Of a stretch of DNA of 64,000 nt, positions 19,998 through 43,681 are shown one piece after another (the stretch's first letter is position 1; every line of letters starts with the position of its first letter). The translations under genes were made by a program, and so were the position numbers. This DNA comes from Leifsonia soli. GTDB lineage: Bacteria; Actinomycetota; Actinomycetes; Actinomycetales; Microbacteriaceae. The notes under the pieces are model-generated. The model was given only the letters and a program-made list of their open reading frames with translations, was not told where the DNA came from and did not search any database. The DNA is taken from assembly GCF_013408745.1 (NCBI RefSeq), contig NZ_JACCBJ010000001.1, forward strand, positions 2,170,001-2,234,000, in the 5' to 3' direction.

Positions 19998-21893
19998 TCA
20001 CACCTGCGCCGGAGCACCGCCGCCGACGACGGGAGCCCTGGCCGCCCGGGGCGCCCGCGCGGCGCGCAGGGCGGCGAGGATCGTCGCGAGGTCGACGGCC
20101 TCCTGGAGGAGCGCTCCGACGATGGCCGGGATGACGCCGAAGGCGGCGATCAGCATCAGGACGACGGAGGCGGCGATGCCGAGCCAGATGCTCTGCAGTG
20201 CGATGCGGACGGTGCGGCGGGAGATCGCGACCGCGTCGACCACGCCGGCGATGTCGTCCACGAGGAGCACGACATCCGCCGATTCGCTCGCCGCCGTCGC
20301 GCCCTTCGCACCCATCGCGACGCCGACATCGGCGCGGGCGAGCACGGGGGCGTCGTTGACGCCGTCCCCCACCATGACCACGGGACGGTCGGCGATCTCG
20401 GCCACCCTGCGCACTTTGTCGGCGGGGAGGCATTCGGAGAGGTACCGGGTGATGCCGAGCGCGGCAGCGGTGTGCGCGGCCGTCTCCTCCGCATCGCCGG
20501 TGAGGAGCTCGACGTCCGTCACGCCGAGGTCGCGCAGACCGCGGAGAGTCGCCTCGGCGTCGGGGCGGGGCGGATCGGCTTCGATGATGACCCCGGCGTA
20601 GGCGTCGTCGACGGTGACGTACACGGCCAGCTCCCCCGGGCCGATCTCGGCGCGCGGGGTGTCCGGTGCGAACTCCCGCGCGAAGGCGAGCTTCCCGACC
20701 GCCACGCGGCGTCCGTCCACCTGGGCGAGCACGCCGTTGGTGGCGTGCTCCTCGGCGGAGGCCACCTCGCGGAGCGCGACGGACCGCTTCTCGGCCGCCT
20801 GCACCACCGAGGCGGCGAGGACATGCGAGGAGTACTGCTCGGCGCTCGCCGTCAGCGAGAGCAGCTCGGTCGCGTCGACTCCGGGTGCCGGCCGCACCTC
20901 GCGGAGCACGGGGCGGCCGGTCGTCAGCGTCCCGGTCTTGTCGAAGACGACGGTGCGGGCACGCGCGAGCACCTCGAACACCGACCCGGTGCGCACCAGG
21001 ATGCCGGTGTGCGCCGCCCGGCTCATGCCGCCGATGAACGCCACCGGCGCCGCGATCAGCAGCGGGCACGGCGTCGCCAGGACGAGGACCTCCGCGAACC
21101 GCACGGGATCGCCGCTCACCGCCCAGGCGACGGCGCCCAGCAGGAGCGAGAAGACGGTGAACGGCACGGCGAACCGGTCGGCCAGCCGGACCACCCGCGG
21201 CCTGCTGCTCGCCGCCTGCGCGACGAGGGCGACGATCTGCTGGTACTGACTGTCGGCGGCGACGGCCGTCGCGCGCAGCCGCACGGCCTCCGAGCCGTTG
21301 ACGCTGCCGCTGAGGACCTCGTCGCCGGGCGACCGGTCGACGGGAAGGCTCTCGCCGGTGAGCGACGACAGGTCGAACGCGGCGGCATCCAGCAGGGCCC
21401 CGTCCACCGGCACCACTTCGGCCGGCCGCACCAGCAGGATGTCGCCGATGCGGACATCGCCGATCGGCACGTCCTCCAGCCGGTCCCCCGCGAAGCGGTG
21501 CGCCGACCGCGGCTCGCGCCGCAGCAGCGCATCCAGCTCGTGCCTGGCCCGGCGGTTGGCGTAGTCCTCGAGCGCCTCCCCGCCGCTCAGCATGAGGACG
21601 ACGACGAGCGACGCCGCCACCTCCCCCACCGCCACGGTCGCCACGATCGCGACGACCGCGAGCAGGTCGACGCCGAGCCCGCCGGTGGCGAGCGTCCGCA
21701 GCATCCGGACGGTGTAGCCGACGGCCACCGCGATCGCGTACAGACCGGCGGTCCACTGCGCGGCGGTCACCGCCCCGGCGAAGAACAGCACGAGCGCGAC
21801 GACGCCCACCAGCAGCGTCAGCGTGATCACGCGGTAGCGGAGGGCCGCCCTCACCAGCCGTCCCCCGACGCGCGGGCGCTCGGGAGCGGTCAC
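19998..21893 (-). CDS. Heavy-metal-translocating P1B-type ATPase
   Basis: 631 residues without an N-terminal metal-binding (HMA) domain. It has paired N-terminal helices, the TGESLPV actuator loop, the membrane metal motif TPCPL, phosphorylated Asp318 in DKTGTLTTG, TGDAEETA and the hinge MVGDGVNDAPVLARADVG. The conserved HP dipeptide of P1B pumps is replaced by HV (SSHVLAAS). The GTG start overlaps the stop of the upstream alcohol dehydrogenase (GTGA), so the two form an operon under the paired palindromes at 23009-23049. The metal is uncertain; Zn2+/Cd2+/Co2+-type is possible. Confidence 0.9.
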   Translation of the reverse strand: MTAPERPRVGGRLVRAALRYRVITLTLLVGVVALVLFFAGAVTAAQWTAGLYAIAVAVGYTVRMLRTLATGGLGVDLLAVVAIVATVAVGEVAASLVVVLMLSGGEALEDYANRRARHELDALLRREPRSAHRFAGDRLEDVPIGDVRIGDILLVRPAEVVPVDGALLDAAAFDLSSLTGESLPVDRSPGDEVLSGSVNGSEAVRLRATAVAADSQYQQIVALVAQAASSRPRVVRLADRFAVPFTVFSLLLGAVAWAVSGDPVRFAEVLVLATPCPLLIAAPVAFIGGMSRAAHTGILVRTGSVFEVLARARTVVFDKTGTLTTGRPVLREVRPAPGVDATELLSLTASAEQYSSHVLAASVVQAAEKRSVALREVASAEEHATNGVLAQVDGRRVAVGKLAFAREFAPDTPRAEIGPGELAVYVTVDDAYAGVIIEADPPRPDAEATLRGLRDLGVTDVELLTGDAEETAAHTAAALGITRYLSECLPADKVRRVAEIADRPVVMVGDGVNDAPVLARADVGVAMGAKGATAASESADVVLLVDDIAGVVDAVAISRRTVRIALQSIWLGIAASVVLMLIAAFGVIPAIVGALLQEAVDLATILAALRAARAPRAARAPVVGGGAPAQV

Positions 21894-22954
21894 TCCCGTG
21901 CTGCTGCGCCCGCGTCGGCGGGCGATTCGACCGGGAGCCCGGAGTCGTAGACGAAGACGAGCCGCGCGGGCACCTGCCCGGCGAGCACCTCCGCGACCGC
22001 CTCGTTCACGTCGGCGATGTCACGACGGGCGGCGACGACGCGGGTGCGTCCCGCCGCGTGCAGCGCGAACACCTCGACGAGGTCCTGCCGCGTCCCGACG
22101 ATGGAGCCGATCACCGAGATGCCCTTGAGCACGGTGTCGAACACCGGGATGGTGAGGGTGCCGTCGGCCGGGAGCGAGACGAGCACGAGCCGGCCGCCGC
22201 GGTTGAGCGACTGGAAGGCCTGGTCGAACACGGTGGGCGCGACGGCGAGCACGATGGCGACATCCACGCCGCCCAGGTGCCGGATCGCCTGCACCGGGTC
22301 GACCTCGGCCGCGTTGACCGCGTGGTCCGCGCCCAGCTCGACCGCCAGCTCGAGCTTCTCCTCGGTGACGTCCACGGCAACCACCTGCGCTCCGACCAGC
22401 CGCGCGTACTGCACCGCGAGGTGGCCGAGACCGCCGATGCCGAAGACGGCGACGCGCTCGCCCGGCACCACGCGTGCGGCCTTCACCGCGGCATACGTGG
22501 TGACGCCGGCGCAGGTCAGCGGGGCGGCATCCAGCGGGGACACCCCATCGGGGACCGGGACGGCGAACCGCGCCTCGGCGATGGCGTACTCGGCGTACCC
22601 GCCGTCGACGGAGTACCCGGTGTTGTGCTGCGACTCGCACAGGTTCTCGCGTCCGTCGATGCAGTAGCGGCACTCGCCGCACGCGTATCCCAGCCACGGG
22701 AGCGCGACGCGCTGCCCGACCTCGCGCGTCGTGACGCCGTCGCCGAGGCGCTCCACGATCCCGACGCCCTCGTGCCCGGGGACGAACGGGAGGCCGGGCT
22801 GGACCGGCCAGTCGCCGTCGATGGCATGGATGTCGGTGTGACACAGTCCGCACGCCTCCAGGCGGACCAGCACCTGACCCGGGCCGGGGGTCGGAATCGG
22901 ACGGTCTTCGAGGGTGAGCGGTTCGCGGTACTGGCTCACGACGGCTGCGCGCAT
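21890..22954 (-). CDS. Zinc-dependent alcohol dehydrogenase (AdhP-like)
   Basis: 354 residues. Catalytic zinc ligands are in CGLCHTDIH and GHEGVG, and the structural-zinc cysteines in CGECRYCIDGRENLC. The NAD site follows as GIGGLGHLAVQYA. It oxidises primary alcohols or reduces aldehydes with NAD(H). The ATG at 22954 is preceded by AAAGGAG; the open frame further upstream lacks support. It is the first gene of a two-gene operon with the P1B ATPase. A DosR-like palindrome lies 55 nt upstream of the ATG. Confidence 0.92.
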   Translation of the reverse strand: MRAAVVSQYREPLTLEDRPIPTPGPGQVLVRLEACGLCHTDIHAIDGDWPVQPGLPFVPGHEGVGIVERLGDGVTTREVGQRVALPWLGYACGECRYCIDGRENLCESQHNTGYSVDGGYAEYAIAEARFAVPVPDGVSPLDAAPLTCAGVTTYAAVKAARVVPGERVAVFGIGGLGHLAVQYARLVGAQVVAVDVTEEKLELAVELGADHAVNAAEVDPVQAIRHLGGVDVAIVLAVAPTVFDQAFQSLNRGGRLVLVSLPADGTLTIPVFDTVLKGISVIGSIVGTRQDLVEVFALHAAGRTRVVAARRDIADVNEAVAEVLAGQVPARLVFVYDSGLPVESPADAGAAARE

Positions 22955-23008
22955 GGGCGGCTCCTTTCGGTATGCCGACAGTGTGCTGCGCGCCCGGCGG
23001 CGGCCGCC

Positions 23009-23049
23009 GGGCCGAAGGTCCCGCGGCCCGGTCGTGGGCCTTTGGACCC
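23009..23049. promoter_or_regulatory. Two DosR-like boxes between the AdhP-like gene and a small membrane protein gene
   Basis: GGGCCGAAGGTCCC (23009-23022) and GGGCCTTTGGACCC (23036-23049), centres 27 bp apart. The first is the exact reverse complement of a box at 31128. Each lies about 53-55 nt from the start codon it faces. They resemble the mycobacterial DosR/DevR box (core GGGAC...GTCCC). Binding by the DosR-like regulator encoded at 34922 is inferred. Confidence 0.65.
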
Positions 23050-23101
23050 TGAACGACCGGCAGCGTCCTCGCCATCCTGGGAGCGAGAGTTCGGAGGAGA
23101 C

Positions 23102-23527
23102 ATGAAACGCTGGACCCGCATCGTCCTGACCGTCCTGACGGCCGCCGTCGGCCTGAGCGCGGTCGCCGGAGGCCTCGCGCTCATCATCGGAGGAGCGACG
23201 ACGACGACCGGAGCGGGCGTCGTGCCCGACCGCGCCTACCTCGGCGGCAGCCCGTTCACCTCCTATGTCGCGCCCGGGGTCATCCTCGCGGTCATCGTCG
23301 GAGGGACGCACCTGCTCGCCTCCGTCATGGTGGGCCGGCAGTCCGACGCCGGTGCGTTCGCCGCAGCGGTCGCCGCCTTCGGTCTGCTGATCTGGATCTT
23401 CGTGCAGATGATGTTCATCCCGTTCAGCCCGCTGCAGGCGGTCTACTTCGCCGCGGGTCTCGCCGAGCTCGGGCTCGTCCTCCTCGGCCTCGGCCTGTTC
23501 GGGCAGCGCCGGCCGGTCACCCCGTGA
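23102..23527 (+). CDS. Small four-helix membrane protein (141 aa)
   Basis: The ATG at 23102 follows GGAGGAGAC. Four hydrophobic helices are visible (about 9-31, 57-78, 86-107, 113-135), with little soluble sequence between them. I do not recognise the family with certainty. The stop overlaps the next gene (GTGA), so it is translationally coupled to the beta-CASP hydrolase. A DosR-like box sits 53 nt upstream. The function is unknown. Confidence 0.75.
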   Translation: MKRWTRIVLTVLTAAVGLSAVAGGLALIIGGATTTTGAGVVPDRAYLGGSPFTSYVAPGVILAVIVGGTHLLASVMVGRQSDAGAFAAAVAAFGLLIWIFVQMMFIPFSPLQAVYFAAGLAELGLVLLGLGLFGQRRPVTP

Positions 23528-24900
23528 CCGCATCTCTGCGGTTCCTCGGCGCGACCGACACGGTCACCGGCTCCCGGTACCTGATCGAGGACGACGGCGC
23601 GCGCATCCTCGTCGACTGCGGGCTGTTCCAGGGCTACAAGCAGCTGCGGGAGCGCAACTGGCGGCCGTTCCCCGTGGAGCCGGCGAGCGTGGACGCCGTC
23701 GTGGTCACGCACGCGCACCTCGATCACACGGGCTACCTTCCGGCCCTCGTGCGGGACGGTTTCCGCGGCCGCATCCACGCGACGATGGGGACCGCGGAGC
23801 TGAGCCGCCTCGTCCTGCTCGACAGCGGGAGGCTGCTGCAGGAGCAGGCCGCCTTCGCCGACCGCCACCACACCTCCCGGCACGCGCCGCCCCGCCCGCT
23901 CTACACCGAGCAGGACGCCCTCGCCGCGCTGGAGCACGTCGAACCGCACGCGTTCGCGCAGCCGTTCGGCCTCGGAGGGATGACGTTCCGGTTCGTCCCG
24001 GCCGGGCACATCCTCGGCGCCGCCCAGGTGCTGGTGACGACCGGCGCGGGACGGCTGCACTTCACCGGCGACCTCGGCCGTGTGGACGACCCGCTGATGC
24101 GGCCGCCGTCGCCGCTGGAGGAGACGGACGTGCTCATCTCCGAATCCACCTACGGTGACCGCATCCACTCGCGGGTGGACGCGGAGGACGCCCTCGGCCG
24201 CATCGTCACGGACGTGTGCCGCGGCGGCGGCGTCGTGCTGCTGCCCGCGTTCGCCGTCGGCCGCGCAGAGACCCTGCTGCTGCACCTGAGCCGCCTGCGC
24301 GCCACCGGCCGCATCCCCGATGTGCCGATCTTCCTCAACAGCCCGATGGCGGTCGACGCCTCCGAGATCTACGCGCGCCACCCGGAGGAGCACCGGATCC
24401 CGCGCGACGAGTTCGCCGCGATGTACCGGCTGGCCACCCTCGTGCGCACGGTGGACGACTCCAAGCTGCTCAACCTCCGCGGCGGCCCCGCGATCATCAT
24501 CTCCGCCAGCGGAATGCTCGAAGGCGGCAGGATCCTGCACCACATCGACGCGTACGGCGGCGACCCGCGTAACGCGATCGTGCTCACCGGCTTCCAGGCC
24601 GGCGGAACGCGCGGTGCTGCGCTGCAGCGCGGGGAGCGGGTGCTGCGCATCCACGGCCGCGACATCCCGATCCGGGCGCGCGTGCACACCCTCGACATGC
24701 TCTCCGCGCACGCGGACGCGCAGCAGATCGTCGAGTGGATGTCGACGGCGCCGACCGCGCCGGCCGCGGTGTACCTGACCCACGGCGAGCCGGATGCCGC
24801 CGACCAGCTGCGGCTGCGCATCCGCCGCTCCCTCGGCTGGTCGGCCCGCGTGCCCGAGTTCGGCGAGACGGTCAGCGTGAGCGCGGCGACCGGGCCGTGA
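23524..24900 (+). CDS. Metallo-beta-lactamase-fold / beta-CASP hydrolase (putative RNA nuclease)
   Basis: 458 residues. The metallo-beta-lactamase core has HAHLDH (H63, H65, D67, H68), GHILGA and FTGDLGR, followed by the beta-CASP insert and a C-terminal motif LSAHADAQQI. The domain order matches the archaeal/bacterial CPSF-73/Ysh1-like family, so zinc-dependent RNA cleavage is the likely activity. It is unlike the longer RNase J. The GTG start overlaps the upstream stop. The last 29 nt overlap the convergent P-type ATPase gene. Its place in a putative dormancy regulon suggests stress-time RNA turnover (inference). Confidence 0.88.
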   Translation: MTASLRFLGATDTVTGSRYLIEDDGARILVDCGLFQGYKQLRERNWRPFPVEPASVDAVVVTHAHLDHTGYLPALVRDGFRGRIHATMGTAELSRLVLLDSGRLLQEQAAFADRHHTSRHAPPRPLYTEQDALAALEHVEPHAFAQPFGLGGMTFRFVPAGHILGAAQVLVTTGAGRLHFTGDLGRVDDPLMRPPSPLEETDVLISESTYGDRIHSRVDAEDALGRIVTDVCRGGGVVLLPAFAVGRAETLLLHLSRLRATGRIPDVPIFLNSPMAVDASEIYARHPEEHRIPRDEFAAMYRLATLVRTVDDSKLLNLRGGPAIIISASGMLEGGRILHHIDAYGGDPRNAIVLTGFQAGGTRGAALQRGERVLRIHGRDIPIRARVHTLDMLSAHADAQQIVEWMSTAPTAPAAVYLTHGEPDAADQLRLRIRRSLGWSARVPEFGETVSVSAATGP

Positions 24901-27523
24901 ACCGCGACGCCCGCCGCGCGACCCGGTGCGGGTAGGCGCGGACGCGCTGCGGCAGCTCCGGCGGGCGCGACAGCCGTGCGTAGTACCAGATCTTCGCCAC
25001 CTCGACGAGCACCAGGTAGGCGACCACCATCGCGGCGAGCGCCAGCACGAACACCGCGGGAAGCGGGGTGAAGCCCAGCACGCCGGCGAGCGGCGAGTAG
25101 GGCAGCCACGCGCCGATCGCCACGACGGCCAGCACCGAGAGCACGAGCGGACGCGACGGACGGCTGCGCAGGAACGGCACGCGCCGCGTCCGCACGGCGA
25201 ACACGATCAGCGTCTGCGTCGCGATCGACTCGATGAACCAGCCGGAGCGGAACTCGGGCGGAGCCGCGTTCAGCGCGAACAGCATCAGCGCGAAGGTGGC
25301 GAAGTCGAACAGCGAGCTGATCGGGCCGAACAGCAGCATGAAGCGACGGATCGCCGGGATGTCCCAGTGCGCGGGCGCGCGCAGCTGCTCCGCATCCACG
25401 TGGTCGGTCGGGATGGCGAGCTGGCTCGAATCGTAGAGCAGGTTGTTCAGCAGGATCTGGCCGGGCAGCATCGGCAGGAACGGCAGGACCACCGACGCGA
25501 CCGACGCGCTGAACATGTTGCCGAAGTTGCTGGAGGTGCCCATCAGCACGTACTTGATCGTGTTCGCAAAGATGCGGCGGCCCTCGGTCACCCCGTCGGC
25601 GAGCACGTCGAGGTCCTTCTCCAGCAGGAGGACGTCCGCGGCGTCCTTCGCGACGTCGACCGCCGAATCGACCGAGATGCCCACGTCCGCGCGGTGCAGG
25701 GCGAGCGCGTCGTTGACCCCGTCGCCGAGGAACCCGACGGCGCGGCCCTTCCTGCGCAGGGCCCGCACGATCCTCGCCTTCTGCTCGGGCGAGACGCGCG
25801 CGAAGATGGAGGCCGCGCGCGCCGCATCGATCAGGGCGCGGTCGTCGAGCGCATCCACCTCGTCGCCGGTGAGGGTGCCGCGCCGAGCCATGCCGAGCTG
25901 GTCGCAGACGCGCTCGGCCACGGTCGCGCTGTCGCCCGTCGCGATCTTCACCTCGACACCCAGCGCGGTGAGGCGCGCCAGGGAGGCGGCGGCGTCGGGA
26001 CGCACGGCATCGGCGAACACGAGGAAGCCGCGGATCGCGAGGCCCTCCTCTGCGGTGTCATCGAGCTGGGTGAGCCCCGGGGCGGGGCGGGAGGCGACCG
26101 CCACCACGCGCGCGCCGGTCGCGTACAGCTCCGCCAGTTCCGCGGCGACGGCGTCCCCGGGGGCGGTGCACAGCGGCAGCACCGACTCCGGCGCGCCCTT
26201 GACGACCACGATCGGCTCGGACCCGGCTGCGGCGGCGAGCGCCGTGCACCGGCGCCGCTCGTGGTCGAAGGGACGGACCGCGAGCCGCCGGTAGGCGCCC
26301 ACCGGCGCCTCCGCAGCCCCGGGCGCCCCGAGCAGGGCGGCGTCGAGCGGGGTCAGCCCGGCGGCGTCCCGACCGGATGCCCGGACGGCGACGGGATCGG
26401 CGTCGGTGGCCAGCAGGGCGAGCAGGAGGAGCTCGTCGGACGGGACGCCGCCCACCGGGACGGCACGGTCGAAGGCGATCCTCCCGGTCGTCAGCGTCCC
26501 GGTCTTGTCGGTGACGAGGAGGTCGAGGTCGCCGAGGTCCTCGATGCACACCATCCGCTTCACCAGCACCCGCCGGCGGGCGAGAGCGCGCGACCCCGCC
26601 GCGAGGCTGGTGCTCACCACCGCGGGAAGCAGCTGCGGGGTGATCCCGACGGCGATGGCGAGCGAGAACAGCAGGGACTCGATGACCGGCCGGCCGAGCA
26701 GCAGCGCAGCAACGAAGATCACCGACGAGAGGATGAGCGCGACGACGAGCAGGAACACCGAGAACCTGCCGAGCCCGCGCTGGAACTCGGTCTGCGGGTT
26801 CTGGACGCCGAGGCCGACCGCGATCCGGCCGAACTCGGTCTCCCCCGCCGTCGCCACGACGACGCCGGTGCCGCTGCCCGCGTGGACGACGGTCCCCATC
26901 AACGCGCACGACGCGAGATCCCCGATGCCCGCACCGTGCTCGACGGGCTCGACGGACTTCGCGACGGAGGCGGCCTCGCCCGTGACGATGCTCTCGTCGC
27001 ACTCCAGCCCGGACGTCTCGATCAACCGCAGGTCGGCCGGGACGACGGTGCCCACCGCCAGCGCGACGAGGTCGCCGCGGACGAGCTCCGTGACGTCCAC
27101 GCTGCGGCGCACGCCGTCGCGCACGGCGACGACCGTGTGCCGCAGCCGGTCGTGCAGCGCATCGGCTGCCCGCTCCGCGCGGAACTCGTTGACGAAGCCG
27201 AGGCCGATGCTGACCAGCAGGATGACGCCGATGATGAGCGCTTCGGCCCGCTCGCCGACAACGGCGGAGACCGCAGCGGTCGCGAAGAGGAGCACCAGGA
27301 TGGGGCTGCGCACCTGCCGCCCGAGCACCCGCCACGGGCGGGCACGGTGGCCGCGCACCGCGTTCGGGCCGAAGCGCTCCAGCCGCGACGCGGCCTCGGC
27401 GCCGCTCAGCCCGGCGGTGAACGATCCGACCGCGGCGAGCACCGCCTCGACGGACTCTGCTGCGGCTTCGCGCACCGGGCTCACGCCTGGCGGCGGAGTG
27501 ACCGCCGTGGCGGGGCGGCTCAC
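24872..27523 (-). CDS. P3-type cation-transporting ATPase (MgtA/CtpF-like)
   Basis: 883 residues with the full P-type layout: N-terminal cation-ATPase domain, TGEAASVAKS actuator loop, phosphorylated Asp339 in DKTGTLTTG, KGAPESVLPL nucleotide site, FLGDGVNDALALHRADVG hinge, and about ten membrane helices, the last six at the C terminus. The VLMGTSSNFGNMFS segment is typical of Mg2+ transporters (MgtA/MgtB). Its start overlaps the stop of the USP gene upstream (ATGA). M. tuberculosis has a similar pairing of the P-type ATPase CtpF with a USP gene in its DosR regulon. Mg2+ versus Ca2+ is undecided. Confidence 0.9.
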   Translation of the reverse strand: MSRPATAVTPPPGVSPVREAAAESVEAVLAAVGSFTAGLSGAEAASRLERFGPNAVRGHRARPWRVLGRQVRSPILVLLFATAAVSAVVGERAEALIIGVILLVSIGLGFVNEFRAERAADALHDRLRHTVVAVRDGVRRSVDVTELVRGDLVALAVGTVVPADLRLIETSGLECDESIVTGEAASVAKSVEPVEHGAGIGDLASCALMGTVVHAGSGTGVVVATAGETEFGRIAVGLGVQNPQTEFQRGLGRFSVFLLVVALILSSVIFVAALLLGRPVIESLLFSLAIAVGITPQLLPAVVSTSLAAGSRALARRRVLVKRMVCIEDLGDLDLLVTDKTGTLTTGRIAFDRAVPVGGVPSDELLLLALLATDADPVAVRASGRDAAGLTPLDAALLGAPGAAEAPVGAYRRLAVRPFDHERRRCTALAAAAGSEPIVVVKGAPESVLPLCTAPGDAVAAELAELYATGARVVAVASRPAPGLTQLDDTAEEGLAIRGFLVFADAVRPDAAASLARLTALGVEVKIATGDSATVAERVCDQLGMARRGTLTGDEVDALDDRALIDAARAASIFARVSPEQKARIVRALRRKGRAVGFLGDGVNDALALHRADVGISVDSAVDVAKDAADVLLLEKDLDVLADGVTEGRRIFANTIKYVLMGTSSNFGNMFSASVASVVLPFLPMLPGQILLNNLLYDSSQLAIPTDHVDAEQLRAPAHWDIPAIRRFMLLFGPISSLFDFATFALMLFALNAAPPEFRSGWFIESIATQTLIVFAVRTRRVPFLRSRPSRPLVLSVLAVVAIGAWLPYSPLAGVLGFTPLPAVFVLALAAMVVAYLVLVEVAKIWYYARLSRPPELPQRVRAYPHRVARRASRFTARSPRSR

Positions 27524-28577: not shown

Positions 28578-28612
28578 TGCGCAGCTGTGCGCGCCATCGT
28601 CACACTGACGGG

Positions 28613-36313: not shown

Positions 36314-36393
36314 GGCGCCTTCCTCTCGTTGCGGCGAGCCCTGGACGGCTCGGCCTCCGGCGACAGGCTAGGGGCCGGCCGCGATCGTCGCCC

Positions 36394-36441
36394 GGGTCGA
36401 AGGTCCCGAGCGTGCGGCCGTGCCGGCGGGACCTTCGACTC
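36394..36441. promoter_or_regulatory. Two DosR-like boxes between an SDR gene and the BON-domain gene
   Basis: GGGTCGAAGGTCCC (36394-36407) and GGGACCTTCGACTC (36428-36441), centres 34 bp apart and inverted relative to each other. The BON gene ATG is 37 nt from the second box, and the SDR ATG 81 nt from the first. Confidence 0.6.
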
Positions 36442-36477
36442 AGCCGCGGCCGCCCGCGCGGGGTCACGCTGGAGGGC

Positions 36478-37197
36478 ATGGACACTGCATCGGAATCCCC
36501 GGCCCGGCCGGCGAAGGACCACGCCCGGCGTTTCGACGACCTCACGGTCCGCCAAGCGGTGGAGGCCGAGCTCGCCTGGGCTCCGGATGTGGACAGCGCG
36601 GCCATCGGCGTGGCCGTCGACGGCGGGGTCGTCACCCTCACCGGGGACGTGGGCTCGCTGCACGAGCGGATCGCCGCCGTGGAGGCCGCCGAGCGCGTCG
36701 CCGGCGTGCGCACCGTCGCCGACGAGCTGCGGCTGGTCTCCGGCGACGGCGAACCGCACGGGCACCGGCTCGCCCAGGCCGTCGACGCGATCCTCGCCTG
36801 GACCGCCGGGGTCCCGCACCAGGGCATCCGGGCGGAGGTGAACGGCCATCGCGTCGTCCTGCTCGGCACCGTCGACTGGGACCACGAGCGCGTCGCCGCC
36901 AAGAAGGCCGTGCAGCGCATCCACGGCGTGCACGAGGTCGAGAGCAGGATCGAGCTGACCCGCCGACCTGATGGCGAGGCGGTCGAGGAGCAGATCCGCA
37001 ACGCCATCACCCGCAACGCCGTGGTCGACGCCCGGCGCATCCACGTCACCGTGGACGGCTCGGAGGTCACGCTCACCGGGCATGTCGGATCGTGGGCAGA
37101 ACGGACGCAGGCCGTCCGCACCGCGTGGTCGTCGCCGCACGTGTCGGCGGTGCGCGACCGGCTGGTCGTCGACACCTCGTCGACCGAGATCGGCTGA
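36478..37197 (+). CDS. Triple BON-domain protein
   Basis: 239 residues made of three BON (OsmY/nodulation) modules at about 22-85, 92-155 and 165-235. Each has the pattern hydrophobic-G-x-V-T-L-x-G-x-V (VDGGVVTLTGDVGS, VNGHRVVLLGTVD, VDGSEVTLTGHVGS). BON domains bind phospholipid or act in osmotic and envelope stress. There is no signal peptide here, so it is cytoplasmic or peripheral. GGAGG lies 2-3 nt before the ATG. A stable hairpin follows. A DosR-like box is 37 nt upstream. Confidence 0.88.
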   Translation: MDTASESPARPAKDHARRFDDLTVRQAVEAELAWAPDVDSAAIGVAVDGGVVTLTGDVGSLHERIAAVEAAERVAGVRTVADELRLVSGDGEPHGHRLAQAVDAILAWTAGVPHQGIRAEVNGHRVVLLGTVDWDHERVAAKKAVQRIHGVHEVESRIELTRRPDGEAVEEQIRNAITRNAVVDARRIHVTVDGSEVTLTGHVGSWAERTQAVRTAWSSPHVSAVRDRLVVDTSSTEIG

Positions 37198-37229: not shown

Positions 37230-37277
37230 GATCAGGCATTCCCCAGATCAGGCACGCCTCAGATCAGGCATTCCGGG
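37230..37277. repeat. Three tandem 16-bp repeats at the USP 5 3' end
   Basis: Units at 37230-37245, 37246-37261 and 37262-37277 share GATCAGGCA(T/C)(T/G)CC. The third unit encodes the last residues of USP 5 (PECLI); its stop codon is 37259-37261, at the unit 2/3 border. The copies in front look like duplications of the gene's 3' end. Confidence 0.7.
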
Positions 37278-38116
37278 GCGACCACGATCGTGGGCGTCTC
37301 GATGTGGAGGATCATCGTGTGGCTCACGGACCCCAGCAGGAAGCGGTCGACACCGCGGGCCTGCTGGGTGCCCAGCACGAGCAGCGAGGCCGACCGTGCG
37401 GGCTCTGCCAGCGCGTAGTAGACCTGATCGCGCACGAGCGACGACGAGATCGTGAGATCGGGGTTCGCGCTGCGGAGGCTGTCGACGACCGAGTCCAGCA
37501 TCCGCCTGTGCTCCTCCTCCAGCTCGCCGAGGAAGGGCCCCTCCATCCGCATGTCCGAGACGGCGATCAGCGGGTCGAGCCAGCCGTGCGCCACGACGAG
37601 CTCGTGCCCGAGCCTCCGCGCCTCGCGTGCGGCGTAGCGGGCCGCCTTCAACGACACCTCCGAGCCGTCGATTCCGACGACGACCCTCGAGCGGGCCTCG
37701 TCCGGCAGAGCCGGGATGATCGCGACGGCCCCGCGCGCGGTCGCCGCCAGACGCGCCCCGAGCGACCAGTGGTAGCGCGACCGCGGACCGCGGCGCACAC
37801 CGGTGCCCACGACGACGAGGTTGTCGGGCCGCGAGAAGCTGCGCAGCTCATCCACGCGGTCGCCCGCCATGATGTGGGTGTTCACCCGCAGCCCGGGGTG
37901 CTCGTCGGAGAGACGCTGCGCCTGCCGATCCGCGGCCTCGTGCCGCGCCGCCACCATCTGCGGGGTGATCACCTGGCCGGGAACCGGCAGGCCGGCGTCC
38001 TCGACATCGACGAGGATGATCCCGTCGTCCAGCTGCTCGGCCCGGCGGACCGCCCACTCCAGGGCGACGTCGGCCTCGAGCGAACCATCCCAGCCGACGA
38101 TCGTATTGGTGCTCAT
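37259..38116 (-). CDS. Tandem universal stress protein (USP 5)
   Basis: 285 residues, two Usp domains: TIVGWDGSLEADVALEWAVR with loop GTGVRRGPRSRYHWS, and VVGIDGSEVSLKAARYAARE with loop GTQQARGVDRFLLGS (G-x2...GS, ATP-type). The N-terminal W in GWDGS is unusual. CAGAGGAGTCACG gives the ribosome site for the ATG at 38116. It is the last gene of a leftward unit: flavin protein 2, USP 7, USP 6, USP 5. Its 3' end carries a tandem repeat. Confidence 0.9.
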   Translation of the reverse strand: MSTNTIVGWDGSLEADVALEWAVRRAEQLDDGIILVDVEDAGLPVPGQVITPQMVAARHEAADRQAQRLSDEHPGLRVNTHIMAGDRVDELRSFSRPDNLVVVGTGVRRGPRSRYHWSLGARLAATARGAVAIIPALPDEARSRVVVGIDGSEVSLKAARYAAREARRLGHELVVAHGWLDPLIAVSDMRMEGPFLGELEEEHRRMLDSVVDSLRSANPDLTISSSLVRDQVYYALAEPARSASLLVLGTQQARGVDRFLLGSVSHTMILHIETPTIVVAPECLI

Positions 38117-38144: not shown

Positions 38145-38606
38145 TCACCGGCGGTGCGCATCCCCACTGTCCGGACGGACGACGAGCACCGGGCACGGCG
38201 CCTGCGTCGCGCAGTACAGGCTCACCGAGCCGAGGAACGGCGAGGCGAGACCGCTCAGGCCGCGGCTGCCGATCACCAGCATCGCGGCGTCCCTGGCGGC
38301 TTCGACGAGCACGGTGCCCGCGTGGCCCGCCTGGGCGCGGAGGTGGACCCAGTCCGGGACCGTCTGCCCGAACTCCGCCGTGACCAGCTCCTGGAGCGTC
38401 GTGTACGCCACCACTTTCGGCGACTGCTCCGGCGCAGGGAAGTAGGCGTCGTACATGGAGGTCGAATGCTGCCAGGCCATGACGACCTCGAGCCGGGTCT
38501 CGAGCGCCCGCGCCAGGGTCGCCGCCTCGTGCAGTGCGCGCTTCGACTCGTCCGATCCGTCCACACCGCAGACGATCGGCGGCGACACGCTCGAGTGCGT
38601 CTCCAT
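38145..38606 (-). CDS. Single-domain universal stress protein (USP 6)
   Basis: 153 residues, one Usp domain: VCGVDGSDESKRALHEAATL near the N terminus and the ATP-binding loop GSRGLSGLASPFLGSV (perfect G-x2-G-x9-GS). It is close in layout to USP 2. GGAGGGGAG precedes the ATG. It lies 25 nt after USP 7 and 28 nt before USP 5 in one operon. Confidence 0.9.
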   Translation of the reverse strand: METHSSVSPPIVCGVDGSDESKRALHEAATLARALETRLEVVMAWQHSTSMYDAYFPAPEQSPKVVAYTTLQELVTAEFGQTVPDWVHLRAQAGHAGTVLVEAARDAAMLVIGSRGLSGLASPFLGSVSLYCATQAPCPVLVVRPDSGDAHRR

Positions 38607-38631: not shown

Positions 38632-39534
38632 TCAGATCATGTCGTCGTCCGTGCCGGGGACCACGTACCGGTACTCGGCCGGTGTGACGATGACCGGGCA
38701 GGGCAGGTTCAGCAGAACGTCATGGCTGATCGACCCGAGTATCGAAGCGGCCACCGCGCCACGACCGCGGGTGCCGACGACGAGCAGCGCGGCATCCCGC
38801 GCCTGGTCGACGAGCGCGGAGGCGGGGTTCCGGCGCACCACGACCGGGCGGATGCGCGCCTCGCGGGCGATCGGGACGTCGGCGACGGCGTCGGGAATGA
38901 CGCGGGCCTCCGCCGCCTCGAACTCCGGGTCCGCCTTCCTGCCCTCGTCGATGGCCCGCTGGAACGACTCGGGGACGTCCCAGGCATGCACCGCCACCAC
39001 GTCCGCGTCCAGCCAGCTCGCCTCCTCGACCGCGAGGGCGAGCGCGGAGCGTGCGAACGAGGATCGATCGACGCCGACCACCACGACGTTGCGCTCGACG
39101 GGTCGCGTGTCCAGAGGGCCCGGGTCCGGGACGACCGCGACGGCACCGTGCGCCTTGGCCGCCAGCCGGAGCGGCAGCGAGCCGATCCGCGGTCCGGTTC
39201 CGTCGGTGCGCCGGTCGGTGCCGACGACGAGCAATGCGGCATCCCGTGCGGCGCGGATCAGTGCGCCGGACGGCGGTCCGTCCACCCAGCGGGCGCTGAC
39301 CGGGACACCCGGGGCGCGGCTGCCGGCGTGGTTCTCCGCCTCGCGGAGCCCCGACTCGACGGTCTCCGACAGGTCGGTGTGCGGCCCGAACACGGCCGCT
39401 CCCAGCCGGGTGTCGAGCGCCGTCACGATCTCCAGCGTCCCGCCGCGCTGCTCCACGCGGTCGAGCGCCCAGTCCAGCGCACGCCAGGCGGCCGTCGTCC
39501 CGTCGAACCCGACGACGGTCCTCCCGTCGCTCAT
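38632..39534 (-). CDS. Tandem universal stress protein (USP 7)
   Basis: 300 residues. Domain 1 has TVVGFDGTTAAWRALDWALD with loop GTDRRTDGTGPRIGS. Domain 2 has VVVVGVDRSSFARSALALA with loop GTRGRGAVAASILGSI, a good ATP-binding match. An acidic C-terminal tail (PGTDDDMI) follows. Its ATG overlaps the stop of the flavin-binding protein 2 gene (ATGA), repeating the USP/flavin-protein pairing seen at 30163-30176 but in the opposite gene order. Confidence 0.9.
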   Translation of the reverse strand: MSDGRTVVGFDGTTAAWRALDWALDRVEQRGGTLEIVTALDTRLGAAVFGPHTDLSETVESGLREAENHAGSRAPGVPVSARWVDGPPSGALIRAARDAALLVVGTDRRTDGTGPRIGSLPLRLAAKAHGAVAVVPDPGPLDTRPVERNVVVVGVDRSSFARSALALAVEEASWLDADVVAVHAWDVPESFQRAIDEGRKADPEFEAAEARVIPDAVADVPIAREARIRPVVVRRNPASALVDQARDAALLVVGTRGRGAVAASILGSISHDVLLNLPCPVIVTPAEYRYVVPGTDDDMI

Positions 39535-40022
39535 CGCCGGCCCTCCGCACGGCCGGTGACCGTGTGCAGGCGCAGCCGGAAGACCGCTGCGGCGGCGTTC
39601 GGGCGTCCGAGTTCCGCTTCCGCTTCGGCCAGGCGCGGGATGTCGAGCGTCCGCACCATGCCCATCTCGGCTCCGGGATGCTCGCTGCCCGACGCCTGCG
39701 CCGGCGGACGCAGCCGAGCGAGGAGCACATCCAGCCCCTCCCTGGCCTCGGCTCCGAGCAGCTGCTCGAACGTGCCCCAGGCGATCACGCTCCGCCATTC
39801 GTCGAGAGAGACCACGTCGTCGACCTCGAAGCACACCTCGGGGTGGCTCCGCAGCGCGTCGAGCTTGCGGCCCTGCGCGCTGTGCGCGTAGATGTCGCCG
39901 TCGCGATAGGCGTACGCGATCGGCACCACGTAGGGGACCTCACCGTCCGTCAGGCCCAGACGGCCGACCGGCTGACTCGCCAGCACGTCGTCGATCTCAT
40001 CGCGGCTCAGTTCCACAGGCAT
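39531..40022 (-). CDS. Pyridoxamine 5'-phosphate oxidase-family protein 2
   Basis: 163 residues. The split-barrel start is LSRDEIDDVLASQPVGRLGL, followed by VPYVVPIAYAYRDGDIYAHS and KLDALRSHPEVCFEVDDV. These are the standard flavin-binding strands and the HS motif of this family. A longer C-terminal region (about 110-163) follows. It is first in the unit with USP 7, USP 6 and USP 5. A DosR-like box is 60 nt upstream. FMN or F420 binding cannot be separated. Confidence 0.85.
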   Translation of the reverse strand: MPVELSRDEIDDVLASQPVGRLGLTDGEVPYVVPIAYAYRDGDIYAHSAQGRKLDALRSHPEVCFEVDDVVSLDEWRSVIAWGTFEQLLGAEAREGLDVLLARLRPPAQASGSEHPGAEMGMVRTLDIPRLAEAEAELGRPNAAAAVFRLRLHTVTGRAEGRR

Positions 40023-40081
40023 CGGGGGCTCCTCACATCCGTCGGTCCCCCGAGCGTCCCGCGCCGAGGCGGCCCCGCGCC

Positions 40082-40095
40082 AGGACCTTCGACCC
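40082..40095. promoter_or_regulatory. DosR-like box between flavin protein 2 and the DUF5652 gene
   Basis: AGGACCTTCGACCC, one mismatch from the consensus GGGACCTTCGRCCC, in a divergent gap. It is 60 nt from the flavin-protein ATG and 36 nt from the DUF5652 ATG. Only one copy is evident here. Confidence 0.55.
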
Positions 40096-40130
40096 TTCAC
40101 GGCCGGAGGCGGGGCGGCTTGAGTGGCCGC

Positions 40131-40436
40131 ATGAAGACCAAGCAGCAGAAGACGACGTGGATCAGCGGCCGCGATGTCCCGCCGGGACGCGCCGCGGCAT
40201 TCGGCGCGATCGTGGCGTGGAGCCTCGCCTGGAAGGGCGTGTCGCTCTGGCGCGCCGCACGGAACCAGAGCAAGCCCTGGTTCGTCACCCTGCTCCTCAC
40301 GAACACTCTGGGCGTCCTCGACGCGGTGTACCTGTTCGGCATCGACCGCCGGCACCGCACCGACGACCGGGTGGAGCAGGCGATCCTCGCCGCGACGGGC
40401 GAACCGCCGCAGCGCGGCCACACCCCCGAGACCTGA
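40131..40436 (+). CDS. DUF5652-like small membrane protein (101 aa)
   Basis: 101 residues. The core AWSLAWKGVSLWRAARNQSK then WFVTLLLTNTLGVLDAVYLF matches the two-helix DUF5652 pattern. The N terminus is basic and the tail charged. There is a GGAGG 20 nt upstream but nothing strong at the usual spacing. It is probably the first gene of a rightward unit with the bactofilin-like protein (68 nt later). The function is unknown. Confidence 0.75.
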   Translation: MKTKQQKTTWISGRDVPPGRAAAFGAIVAWSLAWKGVSLWRAARNQSKPWFVTLLLTNTLGVLDAVYLFGIDRRHRTDDRVEQAILAATGEPPQRGHTPET

Positions 40437-40504: not shown

Positions 40505-41767
40505 ATGAACGCACGGTCGCACCGCCGCCGGCTCGCCGTGGTGACGGCGATCGCCGGGATCCTGATGCTCGGCATCGGGGGCGCAGCCGCCTATCCGGCC
40601 GCGACGGCCGCAGCGGGCGGGGACACCGGCCCGCACTTCTACACCGGCACGGCCATCGACGTCTCCGGTTCCGTCGACGGCGATGTGTACGCCGCAGGCC
40701 AGAGCGTGAACATCAGCGGCGACGTCACCGGGGATGTCATCGCCGCCGCCCAGACGATCACCGTCAGCGGAACCGTGGACGGCAACATCCGGCTGGCCGG
40801 GCAAGACGTCACCATCTCCGGCGACGTCATGCGCAGCGGCACCATCTTCGCCTCCAGCATCGTGGTCTCGGACGGCGGGTCGGTCCGCAACGACATCGTC
40901 GCGGCCGCCGCCACCATCACCGTCGCGGGAGATGTCGGACGGGACATGGAGGTCAGCGTCTCGCGGCTCACCATCGACGGATCGGTCGGCGGTGATGTGA
41001 CCTACTCCAGCGACACCACCGCACAGATCGCGAGCGGAGCGGTCGCCGGAACGGTGCACCACATCCGGCCGCAGCGGGCGTCGACGGTCGAGATCTCGCC
41101 GTGGGCGGTGGCCTTCGGCTGGCTCCTCGGCCTGCTGTACGCCCTCGTCGCCCTCAGCCTCATCACCGTCGCCGCGGGACTGCTCATCCCGCGCTGGCTG
41201 GAGCGGGTGACCGATCAGCTCATCCCGTCGCCCTGGCGCGCCCTGCTCGTCGGCTTCATCGCGGCGATCGTCGTTCCCTTCGCCCTGCTCTTCCTGCTGG
41301 TGACGATCGTGGGGGCGCCCCTCGCCCTCGCGGGCATCCTGGTCTGGACGGTGCTGACGCTCGCGACGTTCCTGTTCAGCGCCCACTATCTCGGGCGGCT
41401 CGTCCTCCGAGGCCGGCACCACCCGGTCCTGACCTCGTTCGTCGGCGGGCTGATCCTGATCGTCGGGCTCCAGATCCCGTGGCTCAACATCCTGGTCTGG
41501 CTGGCGATGGTGTTCTTCGGCCTGGGTGCCCAGCTGCTCGAGTTCCGCCGGCAGCGACCGTGGAACACGACGAACCGGCCGGTGGCAGCAGCGCCGTCCC
41601 CGGCACCGTATCCGGCGGCCCCGGCCGCACCAGCAGCGGCGCCGGCCGCACCTGCAGCAGCGCCGGCCGCACCCGCAGCAGCGCCCCCGGCCGGGGCGCC
41701 GGTGGAGCCGCCCGTCGTCCCGACGACCGGCGAGCCCCCGCAGGGCGGCAGCACCCCGACGACATGA
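40505..41767 (+). CDS. Membrane protein with bactofilin-like polymer-forming domain
   Basis: 420 residues. An N-terminal signal/anchor (about 11-32) is followed by a right-handed beta-helix of 6-8-residue repeats (IDVSGSVDGDVYAAGQSVNI; ISGDVTGDVIAAAQTITVSG), as in bactofilin/polymer-forming proteins (about 40-170). Four to five membrane helices follow (about 200-340), and a Pro/Ala-rich tail closes the protein. The ATG at 40505 is chosen because GGGGAGG lies 8 nt upstream; an ATG at 40481 is possible. The stop overlaps the next ATG (ATGA). It may assemble outside the membrane as a surface scaffold (inference). Confidence 0.85.
   Translation: MNARSHRRRLAVVTAIAGILMLGIGGAAAYPAATAAAGGDTGPHFYTGTAIDVSGSVDGDVYAAGQSVNISGDVTGDVIAAAQTITVSGTVDGNIRLAGQDVTISGDVMRSGTIFASSIVVSDGGSVRNDIVAAAATITVAGDVGRDMEVSVSRLTIDGSVGGDVTYSSDTTAQIASGAVAGTVHHIRPQRASTVEISPWAVAFGWLLGLLYALVALSLITVAAGLLIPRWLERVTDQLIPSPWRALLVGFIAAIVVPFALLFLLVTIVGAPLALAGILVWTVLTLATFLFSAHYLGRLVLRGRHHPVLTSFVGGLILIVGLQIPWLNILVWLAMVFFGLGAQLLEFRRQRPWNTTNRPVAAAPSPAPYPAAPAAPAAAPAAPAAAPAAPAAAPPAGAPVEPPVVPTTGEPPQGGSTPTT
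41620..41682 (+). repeat. Three 21-bp in-frame repeats in the Pro/Ala tail
   Basis: Units at 41620-41640, 41641-41661 and 41662-41682 with pattern GCCGGCCGCACC(T/C)GCAGCAGC. They encode a repeating Ala/Pro heptapeptide in the C-terminal tail. The unit number may vary between strains. Confidence 0.7.
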
Positions 41768-42441
41768 GCGGAACGCCGAGGCGGGCGTTCATCGTCCGCT
41801 GGATCGCTGCGGTCACCGTCGGCGAGACGGCCGGGTTCGCCGTCGCCGCGACGGTCGCCGTCGGGGTGACCGTCGCGGGAATGGCCCTCCCCACCTGGGT
41901 CGCCTACGCGATCGTCGTCGCCGGAGGAGCGGCCGAGGGCGCGATCCTCGGGGTCGCCCAGCAGTGGGCGGCGGGCAGAGCGCAGGTCGGCCCGGCCTGG
42001 GTCGCGGCCACGAGCGGCGGGGCCGCCCTCGCCTGGGCCATCGGGATGCTGCCGAGCACCCTCGGCGTCGACCTCCGCACTCCCGTGGGGATCGGCGCGG
42101 CGGTCGTCGGCGGCGCGGTGCTCCTCGGATCCATCCCGACGGCCCAGTGGATGGCGCTCCGCCGGCGCGGCACGGTGCGGTGGATCCCGATCACGATGGG
42201 CGCGTGGGCGGTGGCGATCCTGTGGACCGCCGCGCCATCGCCGATCATCGACGAGCACACGCCCGTGCCGCTCATCGTGGTGGCGTACCTGGTCGCCGGG
42301 CTGCTGATGGCCGTGACGATCGCGGGGCTGACCGCGCCGACGGCCGCGTCGCTGTTCGTGGCGGACCCGGCACCGCGGGAGGACTTTGGGCCCGCCCGGG
42401 CGACGCGCGGAACCCTACGCTCGCATCCAGAGAGAACATGA
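41764..42441 (+). CDS. Multi-helix membrane protein (225 aa), unknown
   Basis: 225 residues, nearly all hydrophobic, with about six helices (GETAGFAVAATVAVGVTVAG; TWVAYAIVVAGGAAEGAILG; LAWAIGMLPST and so on). No family is recognised. It is coupled to the bactofilin-like protein by an ATGA overlap, so the two products may form a complex. A possible DosR-like motif lies inside its 3' end, upstream of the DUF805 gene. Confidence 0.75.
   Translation: MSGTPRRAFIVRWIAAVTVGETAGFAVAATVAVGVTVAGMALPTWVAYAIVVAGGAAEGAILGVAQQWAAGRAQVGPAWVAATSGGAALAWAIGMLPSTLGVDLRTPVGIGAAVVGGAVLLGSIPTAQWMALRRRGTVRWIPITMGAWAVAILWTAAPSPIIDEHTPVPLIVVAYLVAGLLMAVTIAGLTAPTAASLFVADPAPREDFGPARATRGTLRSHPERT
42380..42393. promoter_or_regulatory. 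Possible DosR-like box inside a coding region
   Basis: AGGACTTTGGGCCC lies inside the 3' end of the preceding gene, about 80 nt before the DUF805 start. It matches the consensus less well and may be chance codon sequence. Confidence 0.3.
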
Positions 42442-42472
42442 GCACGAGAGGGCATGAGAAGGGATGGGCACC

Positions 42473-42850
42473 ATGTCGTTCTTCGAGGCGATCGCGACCG
42501 CGTTCAAGAAGTATGCGACGTTCACCGGCACGGCGGGACGACCCGAGTTCTGGTGGTTCGCGCTGTTCGTCTACCTCGGCGCCGCCGCGCTCAACGCACT
42601 GAATCTCATCACGCCGCAGGGCACCATCTACCTCGGCAGCAGCCTCTCCGCCGTCTTCGGCCTGGCCGTGCTCCTGCCGTACCTGGCGGTGACCGTCCGC
42701 CGGCTGCGCGACACCGGGCGCTCGTGGGCCAACCTGTTCTGGCTGCTGCTCCCCATCGCCGGGCTGATCGTGCTGATCGTGCTCCTGGCCCAGCCGGGGA
42801 CCTCGGCGCAGGCGCAGGGGCGGCTGCCCGACAACACCGTCCGCGCCTGA
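42473..42850 (+). CDS. DUF805 membrane protein 1
   Basis: 125 residues from the ATG at 42473 (MSFFEA, the usual family start); an in-frame ATG at 42464 adds three residues. The hallmark is FKKYATFTGTAGRPEFWWFA followed by three membrane helices (about 25-45, 55-75, 82-102) and a short RLRDTGRSWANLFW motif between helices. DUF805 proteins are inner-membrane proteins of unknown role, often in pairs. A second copy follows 28 nt later. Confidence 0.88.
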   Translation: MSFFEAIATAFKKYATFTGTAGRPEFWWFALFVYLGAAALNALNLITPQGTIYLGSSLSAVFGLAVLLPYLAVTVRRLRDTGRSWANLFWLLLPIAGLIVLIVLLAQPGTSAQAQGRLPDNTVRA

Positions 42851-43397: not shown

Positions 43398-43598
43398 TCA
43401 CGCGCCGAGCAGGACCAGGACGTGATAGACGACGTAGACCGGCCAGACGATCGCCTGGAGCAGCCCGAGCACGACGCCCCAGAAGGAGCCGTCCGACACG
43501 GAGATGAAGTAGATGGCCGCGCCGATGTAGGCCAGCAGGAAGAAGAACCCCCAGGGTCCGTCCCGCACGATGGTCCTCGCGTTCGTCCCGTCACCCAT
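43398..43598 (-). CDS. Small two-helix membrane protein (66 aa)
   Basis: 66 residues: a polar N terminus (MGDGTNARTIVRDGP), then WGFFFLLAYIGAAIYFISVS and VLGLLQAIVWPVYVVYHVLV. This 'GFF...IGAA.YF...VWP..VYHVLVLLG' pattern is common in Actinobacteria (from memory) and marks a real gene. It is antisense to the tail of the DUF805 reading frame. The ATG at 43598 is preceded by CGGGAGAGC. A DosR-like box lies 70 nt upstream. Confidence 0.85.
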   Translation of the reverse strand: MGDGTNARTIVRDGPWGFFFLLAYIGAAIYFISVSDGSFWGVVLGLLQAIVWPVYVVYHVLVLLGA

Positions 43599-43667
43599 GG
43601 CGCTCTCCCGTCTCACTGTTCGTCTCGTCGTGGCCACATCCTCGCGGCGGGCGGCGGCCCCGGTGAA

Positions 43668-43681
43668 GGGACTTTCGCCCC
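43668..43681. promoter_or_regulatory. DosR-like box upstream of the small membrane protein gene
   Basis: GGGACTTTCGCCCC, two mismatches from GGGACCTTCGRCCC, in the gap between the small membrane protein (70 nt to its ATG) and the MFS gene (107 nt to its ATG). It is nearer to the former and is the last clear box in the window. Confidence 0.55.

Follow-up and report, generated by a model that had tools for sequence, protein, structure and literature searches.

We have analyzed a 64,000-nucleotide (nt) stretch of the Leifsonia soli genome (the window; positions 2170001-2234000 of a single contig of 3,917,147 bases) and conclude, with a probability of about 0.92, that the block of genes from 19998 to 43700 forms the core of a two-component regulon of DosR type (DosRST / OsdKR) in a Leifsonia-group actinobacterium. 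Its genes are very probably switched on by a sensor kinase and response regulator encoded in the middle of the block, judging from a repeated 14-bp near-palindrome (the box) that precedes them. Coordinates follow window numbering, except that L. soli positions outside the window are given in genome numbering. The best-known setting of DosR is latent tuberculosis, and a counterpart has been described in Streptomyces (PMC5069765).

The protein families, heme ligands, boxes, promoter spacing, co-occurrence and conservation that carry this conclusion are all seen at the level of sequence. The best solved-structure match of the regulator is DevR (3c3w, 3.1e-63), and its recognition-helix stretch EKTVKNYVSSLLAKLG differs by one residue from that of DosR (EKTVKNYVSRLLAKLG). 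The kinase has two GAF domains followed by HisKA_3 and HATPase (Pfam), and the best solved matches of the first of these, GAF-A, are DosT (2vzw, 4.6e-44) and DevS. An earlier note on this DNA had placed a kinase and regulator pair with a DosR-type recognition helix in mid-block, and these matches bear it out. The closest relative of the regulator in a scan of the genome collection is from Leifsonia sp. 71-9 (84% identical).

We compared 28 genomes of the genus, including that of L. soli, calling a kinase at E<=1e-60 and a regulator at E<=1e-50. A GAF-A His preceding PPM and a Tyr at +22 are kept in all 16 kinases found (15 by pattern and that of G004 by eye, with HPA for HPP). We take these to be the heme proximal His149 and distal Tyr171 of DosS. 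Where DevS (2w3d, 4ynr) has Glu, DosT has Gly, and so has the L. soli kinase; the ALGV stretch at this position is the same in 14 of the 16 genus kinases, those of G015 and G024 being unmatched by pattern. Since the Gly is that of DosT, we expect DosT-like oxygen sensing.

The same regulator and boxes could instead answer to general stress or growth phase rather than oxygen or nitric oxide (NO), as has been argued for OsdR. The OsdR protein of S. coelicolor affects stress and development genes (PMC5069765), and a block rich in universal stress proteins (USPs) would suit such a role. However, the pocket His and Tyr have been kept in every genus kinase, and the Gly and its surroundings in most. 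A signal other than oxygen or NO is thus possible, but on the unlikely side.

The DosR-type reading rests equally on the boxes. The earlier note had listed ten copies of the near-palindrome in six divergent intergenic regions; all ten are present where it placed them, and the divergent layout holds with independent gene models. A matrix built from these ten added an eleventh at 42380 (17.0 bits) that was absent from that list. The boxes, the gene runs that they precede and the associated -10 hexamers are as follows.

23009-23022, minus strand: box GGGACCTTCGGCCC, proximal to the alcohol dehydrogenase (ADH) gene, before ADH and the heavy-metal ATPase; -10 CACACT at 22980-22985
23036-23049, plus strand: box GGGCCTTTGGACCC, before the 141-amino-acid (aa) protein and beta-CASP genes; -10 CATCCT at 23073-23078
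28540-28553, minus strand: box GGGACCTTCGGCTC, before USP and Mg-type ATPase genes; -10 CATCGT at 28511-28516
28564-28577, plus strand: box GTGACTTTCGGCCC, before the flavodoxin gene; -10 CACACT at 28601-28606, with the predicted transcription start at the flavodoxin ATG
31112-31125, strand unassigned: weak box GGGTCCTTGGTCCC, before USP, PNPOx and USP genes; -10 GACAGT at 31084-31089 on the minus strand; partly conserved in the sister alignment
31128-31141, plus strand: box GGGACCTTCGGCCC, before the ADH-USP-kinase-regulator run; TTGACT at 31164-31169
36394-36407, minus strand: box GGGACCTTCGACCC, before the short-chain dehydrogenase (SDR) gene; -10 TAGCCT at 36365-36370
36428-36441, plus strand: box GGGACCTTCGACTC, before the BON gene; -10 CACGCT at 36465-36470, with a predicted leaderless BON start
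40082-40095, plus strand: single box AGGACCTTCGACCC, before PNPOx and three USP genes one way and DUF5652 the other; -10-like hexamers on both sides, GACGCT at 40053-40058 and TTGAGT at 40119-40124, an apparent two-way promoter
42380-42393, plus strand: eleventh box AGGACTTTGGGCCC, before the DUF805 gene; -10 TACGCT at 42416-42421
43668-43681, plus strand: box GGGACTTTCGCCCC, between a 66-aa gene (minus) and an MFS transporter gene (plus)

At a threshold of 14 bits the matrix finds 11 places within the 23.7 kb of the block, none in the remaining window and two adjoining 20-kb stretches, and one in 220 kb of control stretches from the same genome. Ten of the eleven matches had served as the training set, so that leave-one-out scores are what counts: nine of the ten sites score at least 12.8, and 31112 only 8.6. 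Over these stretches, a matrix scan of the kind that the earlier note had suggested sets the block apart, with the reservation that promoter sites of the same kind exist elsewhere in the genome (see below). The distances from box to start codon are 35-114 nt; as the script retained only 35-130 nt, this range is no test.

The boxes also keep a fixed spacing to a second element. When the flanks were aligned on the edge of the box, a peak emerged at positions 25, 28 and 29 past it. A hexamer xANNNT with its A at 24 or 25 past the proximal box occurs in 15 of 19 L. soli promoter directions, against at most 3 (mean 0.57) at other, non-touching offsets. A twentieth direction, at 2551599, also has it, giving 16 of 20 with a -10 element 22-23 nt past the box; two of the remainder have TTGANT, and the two directions from 43668 have neither. 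By contrast, the four genomic matches with at most one mismatch that lie inside genes (1085896, 1964607, 2478622 and 3517953) have a -10 at this spacing on none of their eight sides. The combined pattern box-N22/23-NANNNT is found at six places in the L. soli genome, all at assigned promoters, and its reversed control at none. The -10 signal at position 25 is also seen at 68 of 186 sites in the genus (median over all offsets 3) and at 26 of 93 in other genera (median 2). In sister alignments the box, a Shine-Dalgarno-like stretch and one further short block are kept (by eye), and that block is the -10 element.

This spacing is predicted to place the box at about -36 to -49, overlapping the -35 region, like the proximal box of DevR targets in mycobacteria (PMC3029386). 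As the predicted starts of the flavodoxin, BON and DUF5652 genes fall on their ATG, these transcripts may be leaderless. The spacing also offers a cheap rule for finding targets and discarding chance matches, because it is lacking from the four in-gene matches and from the lone match in kinase-less genome G010, the one in G022 being itself in-gene.

Across the genus the motif follows the kinase. The kinase is present in 16 of the 28 genomes and the regulator in all of these and in G027 as well, while the beta-CASP gene is found in 12, all within the 16. The strict motif GGGACYTTCGNCCC has 61 matches in the kinase genomes and 2 in the 12 kinase-less ones, its reversed control having 16 and 12, respectively (Mann-Whitney p = 4.8e-5 for the association, or 6.8e-5 with L. 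soli excluded). Neither of the 2 is promoter-like: in G010 the match has neither a modelled gene start behind it nor a -10 at the expected distance, and in G022 it falls within a gene. Outside the islands of the kinase-bearing sisters, 17 of 20 strict matches are intergenic.

The 15 sister islands were laid out from two adjoining stretches in 13 cases and from one in two (G012, locus L021; G004, a 19-kb stretch). Most have the same gene content and order, G003 and G004 being the most divergent. Allowing 60 nt of leeway on each side, a box of at least 12.5 bits is found in 52 of 56 divergent gaps between recognized genes (46 of 50 without L. soli, which has 6 of 6). The four gaps lacking one are in G023, where it was lost to an overlapping gene call, and in G012, G013 and G024 (SDR0/XRE pair outside the island). 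None of 31 divergent gaps in 13 other stretches of the L. soli genome has a box.

These results bear on whether the boxes might serve another NarL-type response regulator, with the DosRS pair a mere neighbor. A regulator search of the L. soli genome gives 61 first-look candidates, and binding of the box by the DosR-type regulator is a prediction. Nevertheless, box content tracks the kinase and regulator across the 28 genomes, the recognition helix matches that of DosR, and the box matches published OsdR sites (PMC5069765). We consider another regulator very improbable, and the tie that the earlier note had drawn between the palindrome and a DosR-like regulator is strengthened by the same evidence.

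A separate observation concerns G027, where a DosR-type regulator (C1:2320638-2321267) occurs with neither a DosS-type kinase (at E<=1e-60) nor strict motif matches; this is possibly an orphan or decaying system.

The genes of the block are listed below.

19998-21893, minus strand: heavy-metal (Cd-family) P-type ATPase; TIGR01525/TIGR01512 above cut-off, Pfam E1-E2_ATPase; last in the run behind 23009
21890-22954, minus strand: zinc alcohol dehydrogenase; Pfam ADH_N/ADH_zinc_N; first gene behind box 23009
23102-23527, plus strand: 141-aa small protein, membrane by eye; no Pfam match; conserved island gene, present in sister islands
23524-24900, plus strand: metallo-beta-lactamase/beta-CASP/RMMBL nuclease; Pfam Beta-Casp, RMMBL
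24872-27523, minus strand: Mg-translocating-type P-type ATPase; TIGR01524 at 708.5 bits (cut-off 610.75); second gene behind 28540
27520-28458, minus strand: tandem USP; Pfam Usp, two stretches
28613-29167, plus strand: flavodoxin-domain protein; Pfam Flavodoxin_1/5
29251-29733, minus strand: single-domain USP; Pfam Usp
29757-30176, minus strand: PNPOx-like flavin protein; Pfam Pyridox_ox_2
30163-31065, minus strand: tandem USP; Pfam Usp, two stretches; first gene behind 31112
31190-32206, plus strand: zinc-binding alcohol dehydrogenase family protein; TIGR02822 at 434.9 bits (cut-off 283.5)
32263-33132, plus strand: tandem USP; Pfam Usp, two stretches
33234-34925, plus strand: DosS/DosT/OsdK-type sensor kinase; GAF-GAF-HisKA_3-HATPase, GAF-A structure matches
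34922-35569, plus strand: DosR/DevR/OsdR-type response regulator; DevR match, recognition helix
35558-36313, minus strand: short-chain dehydrogenase; Pfam adh_short
36478-37197, plus strand: BON-domain protein with three BON stretches; Pfam BON
37259-38116, minus strand: tandem USP; Pfam Usp
38145-38606, minus strand: single USP; Pfam Usp
38632-39534, minus strand: tandem USP; Pfam Usp
39531-40022, minus strand: PNPOx-like flavin protein; Pfam Pyridox_ox_2; first behind 40082; start uncertain, 40016 or 40022 (translations)
40131-40436, plus strand: DUF5652 protein, predicted leaderless; Pfam DUF5652
40505-41767, plus strand: bactofilin-domain protein; Pfam Bactofilin
42464-42850, plus strand: DUF805 protein; Pfam DUF805; behind box 42380
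43788-45419, plus strand: MFS transporter, a doubtful member; Pfam MFS_1

The seven USP genes hold 12 of the 16 USP-domain matches of the whole genome. Alongside them the block contains one heavy-metal and one Mg-type P-type ATPase, two zinc dehydrogenases, two PNPOx-like proteins, and flavodoxin, SDR, beta-CASP, BON, DUF5652, bactofilin-domain and DUF805 proteins. The claim that the boxes account for nearly every operon stands, in that their layout reaches nearly every gene run, with operons assigned on strand and spacing. There is no box immediately upstream of the kinase and regulator genes; the pair ends the collinear plus-strand run behind 31128. A further USP domain lies elsewhere in the window (9072-9443 and 10798-14633), in an 839-aa frame, perhaps KdpD, near KdpB/KdpA-like genes (by eye); this region has no box.

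Outside the block the genome contains ten sites with at most one mismatch. Four are the in-gene sites above, lacking a -10; the other six precede genes and have one.

1292760: before an Hsp20 gene
1292101: before a BON gene
1290828: between WS/DGAT and GyrI-like genes
2740775: before a HAD-GH65 protein gene
2743973: before a DUF1918 protein gene
2551599 (L006 5599-6243): before a DUF2202 gene, at a distance of 58 nt; box GGGACGTTCGGCCC, TAGCGT at the same spacing as elsewhere

The gap between the WS/DGAT and GyrI-like genes (L001 8470-10335) has one box with -10 elements both ways, and would be a second two-way single-box promoter. The earlier description of a regulon gathered in one place thus holds for the clustered core; it does not extend to these six further sites of the same geometry, at 1.29, 2.55 and 2.74 Mb. 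In mycobacteria otsB1 presumably has the HAD-GH65 make-up, and we take tgs1 to be a WS/DGAT protein. On this basis the Hsp20, WS/DGAT and HAD-GH65 proteins correspond to hspX, tgs1 and otsB1 by class, which is not a claim of orthology. The DosR regulon of M. tuberculosis, as listed in PMC4090907 (Table 3), includes hspX, tgs1 (triacylglycerol synthase), otsB1, ctpF and USP genes. The proposed fit of gene classes to the mycobacterial regulon therefore receives support from both sets of genes, the USPs and ATPases within the block and these three classes behind boxes outside it.

Some targets recur in the sisters. In G006, G014 and G023 the island itself contains an Hsp20 relative, accompanied by boxes, and in G024 a box site is found 34 nt before a WS/DGAT relative (by eye, from its first residues). 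L. soli itself has two Hsp20 genes, with a box near only one, at 1292281. Sister boxes also repeatedly precede the genes of a 49-aa protein and of an unnamed one, 'STTVAVATYASR'; one of each was scanned, with no Pfam match.

Taken together, these observations suggest how the regulon might operate, where we infer from sequence the signal, phosphotransfer, binding, activation, autoregulation, operon membership and physiology. The heme GAF kinase would sense loss of oxygen, or binding of NO or CO, and phosphorylate the regulator. The phosphorylated dimer would bind the 14-bp near-palindrome, which overlaps the -35 region and is separated from the downstream -10 hexamer by about 22-23 nt, and recruit RNA polymerase. 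Back-to-back boxes, or one box read both ways, would drive the divergent runs of USPs, dehydrogenases, flavin proteins, metal-pump ATPases, beta-CASP and BON/DUF proteins. As the pair lies in the run behind 31128 it would drive itself, and targets beyond the block would include the Hsp20, BON, WS/DGAT, HAD-GH65, DUF1918 and DUF2202 genes.

Several results weigh against a DosR-type regulon. Plain counts of the motif are unremarkable: the loose consensus (at most 3 mismatches) occurs 41 times in the window against 33.4 expected, a number reached by 15 of 100 shuffles, and when one mismatch at most is allowed, the motif and its reversed control each occur 18 times in the whole genome. The NCBIfam matches listed include no DosR/DosS equivalog, the nearest being MadR/MadS, below cut-off. 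Site 43668, where neither side shows a -10 at the expected distance, is the weakest member among the box sites. G004 and G013 have the kinase and no strict match (3 and 4 sites are recovered there with a looser matrix, in the stretches examined), and 3 of the 20 strict off-island matches in sisters lie in genes. Hsp20 genes are present in 25 of the 28 genomes, with or without the kinase, so that the Hsp20 gene does not depend on it. Finally, the genomes compared are related and do not count as independent lineages, and the training sites of the matrix came from L. soli itself; over 80 loci of relatives the permuted-matrix control scatters widely, with a mean of 24, an sd of 21 and a largest value of 161, against 118 matches observed.

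The unremarkable counts, loose and strict, are what would be expected if the boxes were chance GC-rich palindromes picked by eye. That reading is contradicted by the way the boxes cluster, by their constant distance to the -10, by their retention in sister islands and by the motif's association with the kinase, and we find it wholly implausible. Eight of the 18 genomic matches with at most one mismatch fall within 20.7 kb of the 3.917-Mb genome; with at most two mismatches there are 219 matches against 163 for the reversed pattern. The unusual feature of the motif is its placement, not its plain count.

The closest described system is OsdKR of S. coelicolor (SCO0203/SCO0204), where OsdR is a DosR orthologue with phosphorylation-enhanced binding and sites clustered around the pair; eight predicted sites control 20 of the 22 genes between SCO0198 and SCO0219 (PMC5069765). 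Both systems have the pair in a USP-rich chromosomal region and share USP, zinc dehydrogenase and PNPOx targets, and the 14-mer GGGACCTTCGGCCC is among the predicted OsdR sites (Table 1 of PMC5069765), at SCO0167, SCO0216 and SCO5979. They differ in that the osdR-osdK operon has its own site, whereas the L. soli pair ends a longer run, and in that the nitrate reductase, PPDK and nitroreductase given as S. coelicolor targets are absent from the 30 L. soli proteins scanned. Since that paper already has the system and its clustering, neither is new here; the gathering of genes in one place, on which the earlier note had remarked, also surrounds the OsdKR pair. In the open-licence collection that we searched, we found no paper on DosR in Leifsonia and, among the papers listed, none on such a regulon in Microbacterium. 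What Leifsonia adds, as read from its genomes, is the fixed spacing from box to -10, the targets outside the block, and the patchy distribution of the block, as a unit, within one genus.

The M. tuberculosis system (DosR/DosS/DosT, or DevR/DevS) resembles that of L. soli in the sequences of regulator and heme-GAF kinase, in target classes (USP, hspX, tgs1, otsB1 and cation ATPase; PMC4090907) and in its palindrome family TTSGGGACTWWAGTCCCSAA (PMC2275270). Its members are spread over many Rv loci (PMC4090907), it has two kinases where L. soli has one at E<=1e-60, and the L. soli box is of CCTTCGG type. In other Actinomycetota (L022-L100) the regulator is 58-71% identical to that of L. soli. Over 80 relative loci, L021 included, there are 118 matrix matches of at least 14 bits against 13 for the reversed matrix, and 52 loci have at least one. 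The count of 14 intergenic sites among the 118, obtained with 3.5% of the DNA assigned to intergenic space, is unreliable: in foreign genomes our simple gene caller predicts too much coding sequence.

How did the block come to be patchy within the genus? On an RpoB tree (frames chosen by mutual similarity, with lengths agreeing with open frames) kinase presence requires 10 changes, at least 8 of them forced by well-supported branches. Shuffled labels match the real ones in 407 of 500 trials, and kinase presence is thus not clustered on the tree. G019 and G021 have nearly identical RpoB, and only G021 has the island. G019 still has the left junction of the G021 island, matching over 566 bases (96%) that reach into the end of the heavy-metal ATPase gene, and the right flank from the MFS gene on (4.65 kb, 91%); farther left the match is only partial. 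Between these two parts, where G021 has about 17.1 kb of island, G019 has about 2.8 kb with a 908-aa gene. On this alignment the G019 junction is a deletion scar, and the island was lost as a block.

Horizontal transfer was considered as the main cause of the patchiness, and was set back by this scar. The block would then be a mobile stress island, not a vertically inherited regulon, in keeping with the changes on the tree, with island neighbors that vary between genomes and with a GC content of 0.731 against 0.692 in controls. Beside the scar, kinase distances are in partial agreement with those of RpoB (Mantel r 0.39, p = 0.017), the window has no tRNA, and the 30 window proteins that were scanned include no integrase. 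We consider a mobile island unlikely, although an agreement that is only partial leaves transfer some probability.

Tentatively, and at rather less than even odds, we propose jointly that box, 22-23 nt and xANNNT form a fixed grammar across Actinomycetota, and that the Leifsonia core is a dispensable dormancy module lost as a block, regulator included, with targets such as Hsp20 moving in and out. If the grammar is true, DNA sequence would by itself reveal the DosR-type regulon of any species; if the module is dispensable, an ancestral DosR role outside infection could be tested in sister species with and without it. The compact version in Microbacteriaceae, present in some species and absent from close sisters, provides natural comparison pairs for such a role.

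Some minor features were seen at these loci. The G019 scar (L182 12005-19999) comprises the ATPase end, the 908-aa gene and the MFS-sulfatase-FUSC flank, in which an alkyl-sulfatase gene is in two open pieces. The beta-CASP gene of G015 (C30:228153-229512) is also in two pieces, with one internal stop. An Rfam search gave no match in the window. The 49-aa protein (LGWG..IQLGN...LPFP.ARRRR), membrane-like by eye, lies behind sister boxes at L188 3084-3230, L191 and L197, and a protein starting MST..TTVAVATY.SR lies behind off-island boxes in G006, G014, G015 and G024 (L185, L187, L190 and L201).

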